Assembly: GCF_030867095.1 (NCBI RefSeq)
Contig: NC_081829.1
Location: 89,179,261-89,243,260, forward strand
Reading direction: 5' to 3'
Length of the DNA stretch: 64,000 bases
From: Alligator mississippiensis
Taxonomy: Eukaryota > Chordata > Crocodylia > Alligatoridae
The notes beneath the pieces were generated by a model. The model had not been told where the DNA came from. It saw only the letters and a program-made list of their open reading frames with translations, and ran no database searches. The position numbers were made by a program, and so were the translations under genes. Shown piece after piece: positions 8,352 to 54,358 of this stretch (position 1 is its first letter; each line of letters begins with the position of its first letter).

Positions 8352-8520
8352 AAGGGACGTCCAAGAGAGGTGGTGCTCTCCCCTACCCAGGGGGTGTTGA
8401 AGAGGAGACTGGACAAGCACCTGGATGGGGTCGTCTGACCCCAGCGCTTCTCCTGCCCAGGGCAGGGGTCGGACTCGATGATCTCCTGAGGTCCCATCCG
8501 ACCCTAGCATCTATGAACTG
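8352..8520 (+). mobile_element. CR1 LINE, extreme 3' end
   Basis: GAGGTGGTGCTCTCCCCTAC is followed by the CR1 C-terminal frame, the stop region, GGTCGGACTCGATGATCTCC and a CATCTATGAA end. It matches the 3' ends at 14.9 and 26.6 kb but is more diverged. It is strongly 5'-truncated, as usual for CR1. Confidence 0.9.
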
Positions 8521-13990: not shown

Positions 13991-14757
13991 CACTCGAACT
14001 GCGAAGAAGTTCCTCCCAATGTCCAATCCAAATCTGCTCCCTGCCAGCCCGTGGCCACCGTTTCCTGCAACCCCCGGGGGCACCTTGGTGAACAAATACT
14101 CACCAACTCCCCTCTGTGCCCCCGCGACGAACCCAAAGGCAGCCACAAGGTCGCCCCTCAACCCTCTCCCGCGGAGGCCGATAAGGTCCAGTCTCTCTAG
14201 TCTCTCCTCGCAGGGCCCGGTCTGCAGGCCCCCGACTATACAAGTTGCCCTTCCCTGGACCCTTTCCAGGCCATCCGCATCCCTCCTGAAGTGCGGCGCC
14301 CAGAACCGCACGCAGCACTCCAACCGCGGTCCGACCAGCGCCCGACAGAGGGGAAGCACCACCTCCCTGGACCCACTCATCACGCATCCGCCGATGCACG
14401 ACAAAGCGCCACTGGCCCTTCCGATGGCCTCGCCACACCGCCGGCCCATGCCCATCCCAGAGTCCACCAGGACTCCAAGATCCCCCTCCACCTCCGTGCC
14501 ACCCAGCAGGTCACCCCCTAGGCTGTAGGTGTGCTGGACACCCCCCCTCCCCAGGTGCAGCACCCCGCACCCCTCCCTGTTGAACTGCATCCTGCCGCCC
14601 TCTGCCCACCCGTCCAACCTATCCAGGTCTGCCTGCAGCTGTTCCCTGCCCTCCGGCACGTCCACCTCTCCCCATAGCCCTGCGCCATCTGCAAACCCGG
14701 ACAGAGCACACCCGACTCCCTCGTCCAAGTCACCGATGAAGACACCAAAGAGCATCG
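13991..14757 (-). mobile_element. CR1 LINE, inverted 5' arm of a twin-primed, A-to-G-loaded insertion
   Basis: Read on the minus strand this is the CR1 RT 3' half, from the block before FAD(D) to the FFAVRV block, open over about 250 codons. It aligns without large gaps to 25686-26444. The differences are overwhelmingly A-to-G on the element's sense strand, about 104 by hand count. Lys and Asn codons have become Gly, Thr to Ala and Met to Val, and the catalytic FADD reads FADG. Homopurine runs such as AAAAA have become GGGGG. C-to-T (about 6), T-to-C (about 3) and G-to-A (about 2) changes are few. The 3' end of this arm abuts host DNA at 13990/13991, and its 5' end abuts the forward arm at about 14757. 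The protein could not be active. Confidence 0.93.
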
Positions 14758-14983
14758 ATTGGACATTGGGAGGAACTTCTTCGCAGTTCGACTGGCCAGG
14801 GTCTGGAGCGGACTCCCAGGGGAGGTGGTGCTCTCCCCTGCCCTGGGGGTCTTCGGGAGGAGGTTGGATGAGTATCTAGCTGGGGTCGTCTGGACCCGGC
14901 ACTCTTTCCTGCTTATTCAGGGGGTCGGACTCGATGATCTATTGAGGTCCCTTCCGACCCTAACATCTATGAATCTATGAATC
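14757..14983 (+). mobile_element. CR1 LINE, forward 3' arm of the same insertion
   Basis: It starts GATTGGACATTGGG and runs through the CR1 C-terminal frame, GGTCGGACTCGATGATCTAT and an ATCTATGAATCTATGAAT end. About 38 bp (14757-14794) repeat, in inverted form, the last 38 bp of the other arm (13991-14028). Between 14757 and 14898 about 14-15 of 17 differences from the copy at 24.7-26.6 kb are A-to-G, including the ORF stop (TAG to TGG). From 14899 to the end there is no A-to-G change among about 18 adenines. A 22-nt T-run follows at 14984-15005. Confidence 0.93.
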
Positions 14984-15005
14984 TTTTTTTTTTTTTTTTT
15001 TTTTT
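14984..15005 (+). repeat. T22 homopolymer directly after the CR1 3' end
   Basis: Twenty-two T residues follow GAATC. CR1 does not normally add such a tail, so this was either present at the target or grew later by slippage. Confidence 0.9.
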
Positions 15006-24660: not shown

Positions 24661-24680
24661 TATAGATTGATAGTAATACT

Positions 24681-26637
24681 GTTAAAAGGGCCAAAAGGGG
24701 AGCACATAAAAAGTGGAAACAGGGTGAGATCACTAAAGATGAATATACCTCCTCTGCTTGTGCTTGTAGGGAGGTAGTTAGGCGGGCCAAAGCTACCATG
24801 GAGCTGAGGATGGCAACCCAAGTAAAAGACAACAAGAAATTGTTTTTTAGATATATTGGGAGTAAAAGGAAGGCCCAGGGAGGAATAGGACCCCTGCTAA
24901 ATGGGCAGAAGCAATTGGTGACAGACAGGGGGGACAAGGCTGAACTCCTTAACGAGTTCTTTACCTCAGTGTTCCTAAGTGAGGGGCACGACAAGGCTCT
25001 CACTGGGGTTGTAGAGAGGCAGCAGCAAGGCACCAGACTTCCATACGTAGATCCTGAGGTGGTGCAGAGTCACTTGGAAGAACTGGATGCCTTTAAGTCG
25101 GCAGGCCCGGATGGGCTCCATCCGAGGGTACTGAAGGCACTGGCCGACATCATTGCAGAGCCACTGGCGGGAATATTCGAATGCTCGTGGCGCACGGGCC
25201 AAGTCCCGGAGGACTGGAAAAGGGCTAACGTGGTCCCCATTTTCAAAAAGGGGAGGAAGGAGGACCCAGGCAACTATAGGCCAGTCAGTCTCACCTCCAT
25301 CCTTGGCAAAGTCTTTGAAAAAATTATCAAGGCTCACATTTGTGAGAGCCCAGCAGGACAAATTATGCTGAGGGGAAACCAGCACGGGTTTGTGGCGGGC
25401 AGATCGTGCCTGACCAATCTAGTCTCTTTCTATGACCAGGTTACGAAACGCCTGGACACAGGAGGAGGGGTGGATGTCGTATACTTAGACTTCAGGAAGG
25501 CCTTCGATACGGTATCCCACCCCATACTGGTGAACAAGTTAAGAGGTTGTGACTTGGATGACTACACAGTCCGGTGGGTGGCGAATTGGCTAGAGGGTCG
25601 CACCCAGAGAGTCGTGGTAGATGGGTCAGTCTCGACCTGGAAGGGTGAGGGCAGTGGGGTCCCGCAGGGCTCGGTCCTTGGACCGATACTCTTTAATGTC
25701 TTCATCAGCGACTTGGACGAGGGAGTCAAATGTACTCTGTCCAAGTTTGCAGATGACACAAAGCTATGGGGAGAAGTGGACATGCCGGAGGGCAGGGAAC
25801 AGCTGCAGGCAGACCTGGACAGGTTGGACAAGTGGGCAGAAAACAACAGGATGCAGTTCAACAAGGAGAAATGCAAAGTGCTGCACCTAGGGAGGAAAAA
25901 TGTCCAGCACACCTACAGCCTAGGGAATGACCTGCTAGGTGGCACAGAGGTGGAAAGGGATCTTGGAGTCCTAGTGGACTCCAAGATGAACATGAGCCGG
26001 CAGTGTGATGAAGCCATCAGAAAAGCCAATGGCACTTTATCGTGCATCAGCAGATGCATGACGAATAGGTTCAGGGAGGTGATACTTCCCCTCTATCGGG
26101 CGCTGGTCAGACCGCAGTTGGAGTACTGCGTGCAATTCTGGGCGCCACACTTCAAGAAGGATGCGGATAAGCTGGAGAGGGTCCAGAGAAGGGCCACTCG
26201 TATGGTCAAGGGCCTGCAGACCAAGCCCTACGAGGAGAGACTAGAGAAACTGGACCTTTTCAGCCTCCGCAAGAGAAGGTTGAGAGGCGACCTTGTGTCT
26301 GCCTATAAGTTCATCACGGGGGCACAGAAGGGAATTGGTGAGTATTTATTCACCAAGGCGCCCCCGGGGGTTACAAGAAATAATGGCCACAAGCTAGCAG
26401 AGAGCAGATTTAGATTGGACATTAGGAAGAACTTCTTCACAGTTCGAGTGGCCAAGGTCTGGAACGGGCTCCCAAGGGAGGTGGTGCTCTCCCCTACCCT
26501 GGGGGTCTTCAAGAGGAGGTTAGATGAGTATCTAGCTGGGGTCATCTAGACCCAGCACTCTTTCCTGCTTATGCAGGGGGTCGGACTCGATGATCTATTG
26601 AGGTCCCTTCCGACCCTAACATCTATGAATCTATGAA
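24681..26637 (+). mobile_element. CR1 LINE, 5'-truncated, young-looking
   Basis: The open RT frame begins right at the truncation (AKRGAHKKWKQGEI…) and ends with TAG at 26547-26549. A short 3' UTR with GGGGGTCGGACTCGATGATC and the terminal ATCTATGAATCTATGAA repeat follow. The copy lacks the endonuclease half, as most CR1 copies do. No clear target duplication is visible, also typical of CR1. It serves as the reference for the edited copy at 13991-14983. Confidence 0.95.
24798..26549 (+). CDS. CR1 ORF2 reverse transcriptase, C-terminal 583 codons, uninterrupted
   Basis: Reverse transcriptase of a CR1 non-LTR retrotransposon. Motifs in order: LLNGQKQLVTDRGDKAELLN (about residues 35-54), DWKRANVVPIFKKG and NYRPVSLTSILGKVFE (about 140-172), QHGFVAGRSCLTNLV (about 195-210), VYLDFRKAFDTVSH (about 228-241), GVPQGSVLGPILFN (about 287-300), catalytic FADDTKLWG (about 317-325), then the C-terminal YCVQFWAPHFKKD and NFFTVRVAKVWNGLP blocks. 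The open frame actually extends upstream of this ATG to about 24666, so the Met is internal and not a true start. The N-terminal endonuclease is missing, so it cannot move by itself. The absence of stops points to recent insertion. Confidence 0.93.
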   Translation: MELRMATQVKDNKKLFFRYIGSKRKAQGGIGPLLNGQKQLVTDRGDKAELLNEFFTSVFLSEGHDKALTGVVERQQQGTRLPYVDPEVVQSHLEELDAFKSAGPDGLHPRVLKALADIIAEPLAGIFECSWRTGQVPEDWKRANVVPIFKKGRKEDPGNYRPVSLTSILGKVFEKIIKAHICESPAGQIMLRGNQHGFVAGRSCLTNLVSFYDQVTKRLDTGGGVDVVYLDFRKAFDTVSHPILVNKLRGCDLDDYTVRWVANWLEGRTQRVVVDGSVSTWKGEGSGVPQGSVLGPILFNVFISDLDEGVKCTLSKFADDTKLWGEVDMPEGREQLQADLDRLDKWAENNRMQFNKEKCKVLHLGRKNVQHTYSLGNDLLGGTEVERDLGVLVDSKMNMSRQCDEAIRKANGTLSCISRCMTNRFREVILPLYRALVRPQLEYCVQFWAPHFKKDADKLERVQRRATRMVKGLQTKPYEERLEKLDLFSLRKRRLRGDLVSAYKFITGAQKGIGEYLFTKAPPGVTRNNGHKLAESRFRLDIRKNFFTVRVAKVWNGLPREVVLSPTLGVFKRRLDEYLAGVI

Positions 26638-26639
26638 TA

Positions 26640-47839: not shown

Positions 47840-49040
47840 ACCAGGAAACAGCCACAGAAGTATATGGGAAAAAGAAATTGTCAAATAAAGACTGGTTTGA
47901 GGCATACTTGGAAGAGAGCTACCACTTGTTGAAGCCAAGAATACAGCCTATCTGAAACACAACCAGATTCCAACAGAAAGTTTCAAGGCTAAACTGAAGC
48001 ATGCTGGGACATTGGTACAGAAATAGCCAGATTCAGCACAAACCAGTGCTGGACTGACTGACCTATGTCAAGACATACAATTTGCCTCAGACACAGGAAA
48101 CCTGCGAGTTATGTATGATGGCCTGAAGAAAGCCCTTGGCCCAGCTGTCACTAAAGTTTTCCCCCTCAAGTCTCAAGATGGCAAAGTAAAAATCACTGCC
48201 AAGAACAAGCGGATGTCAGACTGGGTCGAATATTACTTAGGGATTTACTCCCATGAAACAGACATTTCAAAAGAGGCACTGGATCAACTTCCAACTCTAG
48301 GTGTACCGGCACAGCTAGACAAAAAGCCTACCCCTGAAGAACTTGGCAAGGCCATAGACTCTCTAACAAGCAGAAAAGCACCAGGGGGAGGTTGGCATCC
48401 CAGCTGAGGTTTTCAAGTGCAGGAAGGCTAACCTGCTACCACATCTTCATCAACTTCTAGTGTGCTGCTGGAAGGAAGATCAAGCACCCCAGGGCATGCG
48501 TGATGCCAACATCATCACTCTCGACAAGAGCAAGGGAGACAACAGTGACTGCAACAAGTATAGGAGCATCTCTCTCCTCAGTGTCACAGGCAAGGCTTTT
48601 CCCAGAGTCATCCTGAAATGCTTGCAGCAACTTGCTGACCACATCTGCCTGGAATCACAGTGTGCATTCAGAGCAGGGAAATCAAAAGTGAACATGATAT
48701 TCTCGTTACTCCTACTTCAAGAAAAATGCAGAGGACAAAATAAGCCACTGTATGTAGTATTTATTGACCTGACGAAAGCCTTTGGCACTATCGGCAGAGC
48801 AGGTTTGTTCAAGGTCCTGGTAAAGATTGCATACCCCGCAACTTTACACGGCAGAATACGCTCCTTCCATGAAAGTATGCAGGCCACAGTTCAGTTTGAT
48901 GAATCAAACTCTGACAGGTTTGAGATGAAAAGCGGAGTGAAGCAGGGTTGTGTTCTGGCACCCACACTCTGGGATCTTTTTCTCCATGCTGCTGCACTAT
49001 GCTTTTGATGGCTTGAAGGAAAGCATATACCTTCACACTA
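47840..49040 (+). mobile_element. LINE fragment, 5' part of RT (same family as 3.5 kb), broken
   Basis: It begins in the linker before the RT (KKKLSNKDWFEAYLEESYHL at about 47865-47925), then MYDGLKKALGP and KAPGG(G) (48111-48400), MRDANIITLDKSKGD, YRSISLLSVTGKAF, ESQCAFRAGKSKVNMIFSLL, VVFIDLTKAF and SGVKQGCVLAPTLWDLF, ending in the next helix at about 49040, just before where YADD would be. There is a frame change near 48400. It is truncated at the 3' side by the foldback element that follows. The two fragments in this window cover complementary halves of the family. Confidence 0.88.
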
Positions 49041-49855
49041 GAGATGCACTGATACGTCGGTCCATATTGTATCGGCACCAATAAAAGGAAATTGACATCG
49101 TCGGCAGTCAGCCTTTTTTGGCTGCTATGACCGAATAATGTCACCAGTTAAATGCCACGTGCATGCACATGGCTGCAGGATGCATGTGGCCAGAGGTGCA
49201 GCCCAGCAGCTTAGAGAGCAGAGTCCAGCTGGTAAGTCTGTGGGGGAGGGCAGGTGCAGAGACGGATCAAGGCCCTTGCATTGAGGGAGGCAGTGGGGCT
49301 GGGGCAGGAGCTGGTGCTGCACAGGCGGGGCAGGGCACAGGACAGAGCCACAGCTCATTCAGAGGGGTGGCTCCTGCCATTGTGCACATCCCAGAGGAAG
49401 CATGGTGGGGCACGTGTCTCCCGGATCTATGGACGGGGTGAGGACAGGCTGCTGCTGCATGCTTGGGGCCAGAAGGTGTGCTGGACTCTTCCTGGCAGGG
49501 GCCTGGGCCCAGGCTGCATTCAGGGTGGTGCTGGGGGGCGGCAGGGGCGGGCTACAGCAAACTTTGGGTTGGCTGTAGCCCCCTTCCCTACCATAACCCC
49601 CTTCCCAGCACTGCTGCAGCCTTGACCCAGGCCCCCTGCTAGGAAGAGGCTAGCTCGACCTCCGGCCTCGAGCGCACAGTAGCAGCCCACCCTTGCCCCA
49701 CAGATCCAGGGGGTATGTGCCCCCCATGCTTCCTCTGGGGGTGCGCACAGCAGTGGACCCACCCCTGTATCTGCCCGAGCAAGCAGCTGCTCCATCCCAC
49801 CCCCCACCCTGTCCTGGCTGTGCAGCCCCAGCCCTCACTGCAGGAATTAGTCAGA
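49041..49855. repeat. GC-rich foldback element with arms of about 280 bp
   Basis: The left edge has a hAT-like tip, CACTAGAGATGCACTGATA, followed by CGTCGGTCC and a TATCGGCACCAAT word. The arms at about 49280-49555 and 49565-49850 are inverted copies: GGAAGCATGGTGGGGCACGT…CCCGGATCTATG and the reverse complement of the right arm GGAAGCATGGGGGGCACATA…CCTGGATCTGTG align over most of their length, meeting at CAAACTTTGGGTTGGCTGTAG. It looks like a foldback transposon with long subterminal repeats. The right tip was not recognised. It sits exactly at the broken end of the LINE fragment. Confidence 0.7.
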
Positions 49856-54024: not shown

Positions 54025-54358
54025 AGCATGACTTGTGAGAAAAGGTTGAAAGAACTTGGGTTATTTAGTCTGCAGAAGATTTGGAGGGGGGTACAATTTG
54101 GAAAGTCTTCAAATACCCAGGAGCAATGGTCTCAAGATGCATCGGAGAAAATTGAGTTTGGAGATTGGGAGGAACCTTCTGACTATGAAGGTGGTCAAGC
54201 ATTGGAATAGGCTATTTAGAGGAGTTCTGGAATCTCCATCCTTGAAGTTTTCAAGAGCAGTCAGGCGGACACTTTGTTTGCTCAGGGCAGGATCATCCCT
54301 GACTAAGGGGCTAAACTAGATGACCTTGTGAGATCCCTTCCAGCCCCATGATCCTGTA
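54025..54358 (+). mobile_element. Old CR1 LINE 3' end
   Basis: It reads the decayed CR1 C-terminus (GAAAAGGTTGAAAGAACTTG, …TTGGGAGGAACCTTCTGAC) and ends in GGGGCTAAACTAGATGACCT, GTGAGATCCCTTCCAG and CCCCATGATCCTGTAT. This is the tail of an older CR1 subfamily than the copies at 14.8 and 26.6 kb. Confidence 0.85.

Follow-up and report, generated by a model that had tools for sequence, protein, structure and literature searches.

A CR1 copy in Alligator mississippiensis with a probable signature of ADAR editing on its sense strand

The window analysed here is a stretch of 64,000 nucleotides from Alligator mississippiensis. At 13991-14982 it contains a 992-bp CR1 copy (hereafter the edited copy), which blastn against another CR1 of the window (24681-26637, hereafter the reference) resolves into two oppositely oriented pieces of a single copy. 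The inverted piece aligns over 767 bp at 84.1% identity and the direct piece over 226 bp at 92.9%, with zero gaps in either. CR1 bases 26413-26450 (38 bp) are present in both pieces, at the left end and again at the joint; the second of these copies has a further, private difference, G>C at 26448. This 5'-inverted structure is absent from the initial annotation of the locus, which gave one copy without two pieces or an overlap. The architecture is as follows:

13991..14757, minus strand (the CR1 sense strand): inverted 5' piece of the edited copy, reference 26450..25684 read backwards
14757..14982, plus strand (the CR1 sense strand): direct 3' piece of the edited copy, reference 26413..26638
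13991..14028, minus strand: first copy of the 38-bp overlap, reference 26413-26450, edited at 26424, 26428 and 26439
14757..14794, plus strand: second copy of the 38-bp overlap, with the same 3 of 11 As edited as in the first
14899..14982, plus strand: unedited 3' tail, reference 26555-26638, with predicted hairpins and two CTATGAAT octamers
24666..26549, plus strand: reference CR1, unedited, a 627-aa open frame ending in the ORF2 stop

The reference carries a CR1-type reverse-transcriptase ORF2 (RVT_1 match, E 1e-32), and its protein shares 93% identity with two Alligator mississippiensis proteins that bear the annotation RNA-directed DNA polymerase from mobile element. We take the element to be a CR1, a name that the initial annotation supplied. 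Relatives of it are described as CR1 in PMC4316615. The reference is 5'-truncated, and at least 39 other copies at 97-98% identity in the genome (2.35 Gb searched, in 195 contigs) indicate a young subfamily. Elsewhere in the window we observed a third, old CR1 copy (8355-8517), a remnant of the C-terminal part of CR1 ORF2 (54028-54277), a remnant whose protein similarity to CR1 reverse transcriptases is about 23-30% and which is probably another or a very old LINE (48376-48987), and an imperfect palindrome with a 71% match to its own reverse complement (49363-49766). An Rfam search of the window gave no match; the viral contigs searched yielded no relative, and the bacterial and archaeal genome contigs searched gave one short match at 50% and nothing useful.

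Read on the CR1 sense strand, in an ungapped alignment with the 38-bp overlap counted twice, the edited copy differs from the reference by 119 A>G changes among 138 differences, the others being 3 T>C, 3 G>A, 6 C>T and 7 transversions. The initial annotation, counting by hand, had arrived at about 118 of about 137, with the same minor tallies. The inverted piece accounts for 106 A>G among 122 raw differences over 767 bp, and the direct piece for 13 among 16 over 226 bp. Over the 955 unique CR1 positions there are 116 A>G among 134 differences, and the asymmetry between A>G and T>C has a binomial P-value of 8e-31. Up to the last change, 116 of 244 As are altered, in agreement with the earlier estimate that about half of the adenines in the affected part had changed. 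We tabulated 12 other repeat pairs in the window, leaving out two self-palindromes. The 11 pairs that do not involve the edited copy present no comparable skew (largest A>G count, 7), while the twelfth, a comparison of the edited copy with the old one at 8355, is skewed in the same direction, as expected (A>G 10, T>C 1).

The asymmetry follows the CR1 sense strand, not the chromosome strand. On the plus strand of the window, the left piece (13991-14757) shows 106 T>C against 3 A>G and the right piece (14757-14982) shows 13 A>G against no T>C, a reversal of the bias at the joint, 14757 (Fisher P-value 5e-15). Had the process acted on the completed insertion, its direction would not switch at the joint; the change is therefore older than the inversion. 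The 38-bp overlap points the same way: the chance of finding the same 3 of 11 As edited in both copies is 0.006 unweighted and 0.011 with context rates, a test that is weak alone (P about 0.01). From the strand flip and these shared edits together, the change preceded the inversion, most simply in RNA, and the simplest template is a single sense RNA that had been edited and was then copied twice. Two other templates were considered and rejected. Template switching onto an antisense RNA predicts T>C on the sense strand of the inverted half, as does a single RNA carrying both orientations; we count 3 such changes raw and none once the direction of change is assigned (see below).

An inverted piece and a direct piece derived from one RNA constitute the layout of twin priming, which quite probably produced the inversion. 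At the target site we found only a 4-bp TCTT, at an offset and in T-rich DNA, and no clear target-site duplication. Beyond the CR1 3' end come one C and then a run of 22 Ts (14984-15005), which may be the target site or may have grown later. Inversions of the 5' part have been described for L1 in human cells and once for Nimb-2_DR in DT40 cells, and the zebrafish element ZfL2-1 (CR1-1_DR) is reported to have given none in cultured cells (PMC4245944). The unclear target-site duplication and the fact that 5' inversion is known mainly from L1 count against twin priming here, and the behaviour of ZfL2-1 favours another sequence of events, in which a hyper-edited RNA gave a plain 5'-truncated insertion whose 5' part was inverted later by a DNA rearrangement. 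The strand flip demands only that editing came before inversion and is compatible with either history. However, a later rearrangement calls for an additional event, one that would also have to duplicate the 38 bp found at the left end and the joint, whereas with twin priming a single event suffices, and we regard the later rearrangement as unlikely. Were it correct, the editing claim would be untouched.

Which copy has changed cannot be told from a pairwise table alone. The direction of change was read from 21 of the at least 39 other genome copies (the first 7 and the next 14 in the list), and a derived change was called only where at least 80% of these relatives agree, that is at 943 of the 955 sites, the 12 mixed sites being dropped. 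The edited copy then has 124 derived changes: 115 A>G, 4 C>T, 3 G>A, 1 T>A, 1 G>T and no T>C. At 109 of the 116 raw A>G sites G is found in none of the 21 relatives, at 6 it is found in at most 10% of them, and at a single one it is found in most. This last site, 25937, has G in 20 of 21 relatives and A in the reference; the change is the reference's own, and the only one wrongly counted as an edit in the raw table. Among the changes that a single one of the 21 relatives carries alone there is no imbalance (A>G 13, T>C 15, C>T 23, G>A 22, transversions 28). The initial annotation had named two findings that would speak against hyper-editing, a parent subfamily already carrying the Gs and a table balanced between A>G and T>C, and both are ruled against by these counts. 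The 9 ordinary changes in 943 bases suggest that the insertion is rather young.

Protein comparisons agree with this polarity: of 94 nonsynonymous sites, 91 have the unedited residue preserved in one or more of three alligator CR1 proteins. CpG decay of the reference was rejected as a source of the changes at C-A sites, 28 of 28 nonsynonymous C-A sites being unedited in at least one of the three proteins. G also occupies three late edited sites in the old copy at 8355-8517; this hint of ancestral Gs was settled by the 21 closer relatives. The mark of APOBEC DNA editing, an excess of G-to-A on the sense strand, was not found either (3 of 124 derived changes).

The same sense-strand A>G in both halves would equally result if the editing had taken place in an earlier round and the present locus were the daughter of an edited master copy somewhere in the genome. 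A search of the genome with the inverted piece, in which 40 of 4989 candidates were scored and judged by percent identity only, returned the piece itself and 39 other places, all at 84-85%. This is the level of the unedited reference, so there is no parent with Gs among the candidates scored. A protein search with the edited frame gave 19 matches out of 2573 candidates, and 19 of 19 carry more unedited than edited residues at the covered sites. These searches and the 109 sites without G in any relative leave an edited master copy very improbable.

The affected As are strongly sorted by the base that precedes them. Relative to the 21 copies, 51 of 61 As are changed after A (84%), 21 of 32 after T (66%), 32 of 72 after C (44%) and 11 of 80 after G (14%). 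By the reference-based counts, the depletion of G on the 5' side has a P-value of 2.5e-14, and no 3' neighbour preference is significant at the edited As. ADAR1 ranks the preceding base in the order A and U, then C, then G, and has no strong 3' preference. The initial annotation had proposed depletion of a preceding G as a test for ADAR, and the locus passes it, with G before 11 of the 115 edited As but before 80 of all 245 As. In published work, ADARs are described as acting less often on As preceded by G than on those preceded by A, C or U (PMC8586724), and edited sites are preceded by G in 7.85% of cases versus 30.3% (PMC2873906). The agreement of our 5' neighbour rates with that preference and that depletion points to ADAR as the likely enzyme, a reading taken from the signature.

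The edits span 25688-26554, or 867 bases. They extend to the 5' limit of what was copied, and the duplex may therefore have been longer. Inside 25684-26554 no unedited gap is longer than chance allows (simulated fraction 0.247), and this gap-free editing fits a long double-stranded RNA as the putative substrate of ADAR. When the RNA's own pairing is predicted, edits fall on 33 of 97 paired and on 83 of 147 unpaired As, and most of this difference follows the 5' neighbour. Since edits are not concentrated in self-pairing stretches, the likely partner is a second, antisense RNA.

Editing stops short of the 3' end. None of the 18 As in the last 84 bases is changed, where 8.4 would be expected (P-value 3.9e-7); the ORF2 stop lies at 26547-26549, and the clean part is nearly the 3' UTR. 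Both 3' features of CR1, a hairpin and an octamer repeat, are present: reference bases 26550-26638 have a predicted fold of -27.7 kcal/mol (z -2.7), and the octamer, CTATGAAT, can be read twice at the end of the element. It has been suggested that the CR1 reverse transcriptase recognises the 3' UTR of the element, whose hairpin and octamer show strong conservation (PMC4316615). The clean tail may reflect a hairpin that was shielded, a stretch that was unpaired with the partner or, alternatively, a requirement for a clean hairpin in copying.

Upstream of this tail, the edits alter the encoded protein, as three features illustrate:

14541..14545, minus strand: AAAAA changed to GGGGG, reference 25896-25900
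14684..14686, minus strand: second D of the reverse-transcriptase motif FADD changed to G (D364G) by an edit at reference 25756, both copies being translated
14891..14893, plus strand: ORF2 stop TAG changed to TGG (*628W), reference 26547-26549

The first two had been reported in the initial annotation and are real, the run in the alignment and FADD-to-FADG in both alignment and translation (ORF numbered from 24666). Over 287 residues the number of lysines drops from 24 to 1 and that of glycines climbs from 19 to 59, and the edited frame is open for 316 codons. The reference piece is a weak match to RVT_1 (E 2e-6, below the curated cut-off), while the edited piece has no match up to E 1. As a fragment whose catalytic motif is broken, the insertion would not be expected to give rise to a functional reverse transcriptase.

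Could the pattern have arisen outside RNA altogether? The sequence is known from one assembly, and an assembly or sequencing artefact might be suspected. It would have to produce 115 changes of one type with the neighbour bias of ADAR, oriented with CR1 sense in two opposite pieces, in a copy that sits within continuous flanks, and is very hard to credit. A change in DNA after insertion, by GC-biased gene conversion or by transcription-linked or other strand-biased mutation, has in its favour that the edited copy is strikingly GC-rich (0.60-0.69 in 200-base windows, versus 0.34-0.44 outside). However, gene conversion yields A>G and T>C alike, and derived T>C is zero; a bias of the chromosome strand would not flip exactly at the inversion joint; and the last 84 bases are untouched. 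We give this explanation even less credence. The remaining possibility, that an APOBEC-like enzyme hypermutated 24681-26637 from G to A, is compatible with the pairwise table but is refuted by the relatives, at least 80% of which have A at 115 of the 116 sites, and by the two alligator proteins, which keep the unedited residue at 63 and 66 of the 68 residues changed by A>G alone.

The reading that best accounts for these observations is that a sense CR1 RNA was edited by ADAR before being copied into the genome, and we hold it to be very probably correct. The initial annotation had advanced the same idea of an RNA hyper-edited before its copying, and the derived table, the neighbour bias and the strand flip all support it, with the enzyme deduced from its signature.

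A LINE copies itself at its target, and the history of this insertion could be reconstructed along the following lines. A sense CR1 RNA would have formed a duplex with the antisense RNA of another CR1 copy, spanning no less than the 867 bases in which the edits lie, and ADAR would have deaminated about half of the As of the sense RNA to inosine. The 3' hairpin would have escaped, being outside the duplex or covered by protein, or else only RNAs with an intact hairpin would have been copied. A working CR1 reverse transcriptase would have come from elsewhere. Copying from the first nick would then have run up to 26413 and copying from the second nick would have covered 26450-25684, with inosine read as G, and the two cDNAs would finally have been joined. 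In a region sampled outside the window (L042:2662-5778) we observed two CR1 copies tail to tail, in opposite orientation and with 14 bases between them. If transcription read through such a pair, the RNA could fold into a duplex of the kind on which ADAR acts.

How general the phenomenon may be is a separate question. The edited CR1 is the only such copy among those compared, a point against our reading. An outside sample of 20 stretches of 10 kb (200 kb, half of it near the window and not random) contained 16 CR1 matches without comparable skew. The largest imbalance among them was 96 to 60, at 70.5% identity (one-sided P-value 0.002, uncorrected for 16 tests), a size that old subfamily differences can give. 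It is conceivable, though we would bet somewhat against it, that ADAR hyper-editing restricts LINEs in the germ line and leaves heritable scars behind. In such a system the 3' hairpin would stay clean, either because the reverse transcriptase is bound to it or because copying depends on it, while the duplexed body is nearly saturated, and the disarmed RNAs would still insert. If this is true, a recognisable class of G-rich, stop-free, dead copies should exist across crocodilian and other sauropsid genomes.

Independently of its frequency, the edited CR1 lends strong genomic support to the view that a LINE RNA, once edited, can still be reverse-transcribed and inherited, and its inversion serves as an internal control that a plain insertion does not offer. 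The clean 3' hairpin provides a testable link between recognition by the CR1 reverse transcriptase and editing. The signature itself (A-to-G on the sense strand, the neighbour preference, no T-to-C) can be used to scan any assembled genome for ADAR as a transposon mutator. For Alu, a 2016 review described the roles of ADAR in subfamily evolution and in mutational suppression of retrotransposition as not determined (PMC4982230). Our literature search for a genomic A-to-G hyper-edited LINE found no report among the titles and abstract openings listed.

The locus nonetheless has points in common with several known systems. Like L1 insertions attributed to twin priming (PMC4245944), it combines an inverted 5' piece with a direct 3' piece; it differs in being a CR1, in its 38-bp overlap, in its edited template and in having no clear target-site duplication. 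With inverted Alu pairs it would share a duplexed retroelement RNA edited by ADAR, but the Alu edits are described in RNA (PMC4982230), whereas the pattern of the edited CR1 sits in the genome. APOBEC editing of mouse IAP and of human HERV and AluY (PMC2873906) has likewise left clusters of one type of change, due to a host deaminase, in genomic retroelement copies; there the change is G-to-A on cDNA, whereas here it is A-to-G on the RNA-sense strand with the neighbours of ADAR. In the avian retroviruses RAV-1 and ALV, hyper-edited by ADAR (Felder 1994; Hajjar and Linial 1995, both as cited in PMC8586724), A-to-G clusters occur, as here, in an element copied by reverse transcriptase and in a sauropsid host group. 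Those are retroviruses, whereas the present case is a LINE in an assembled genome, with a control built in by its own inversion.
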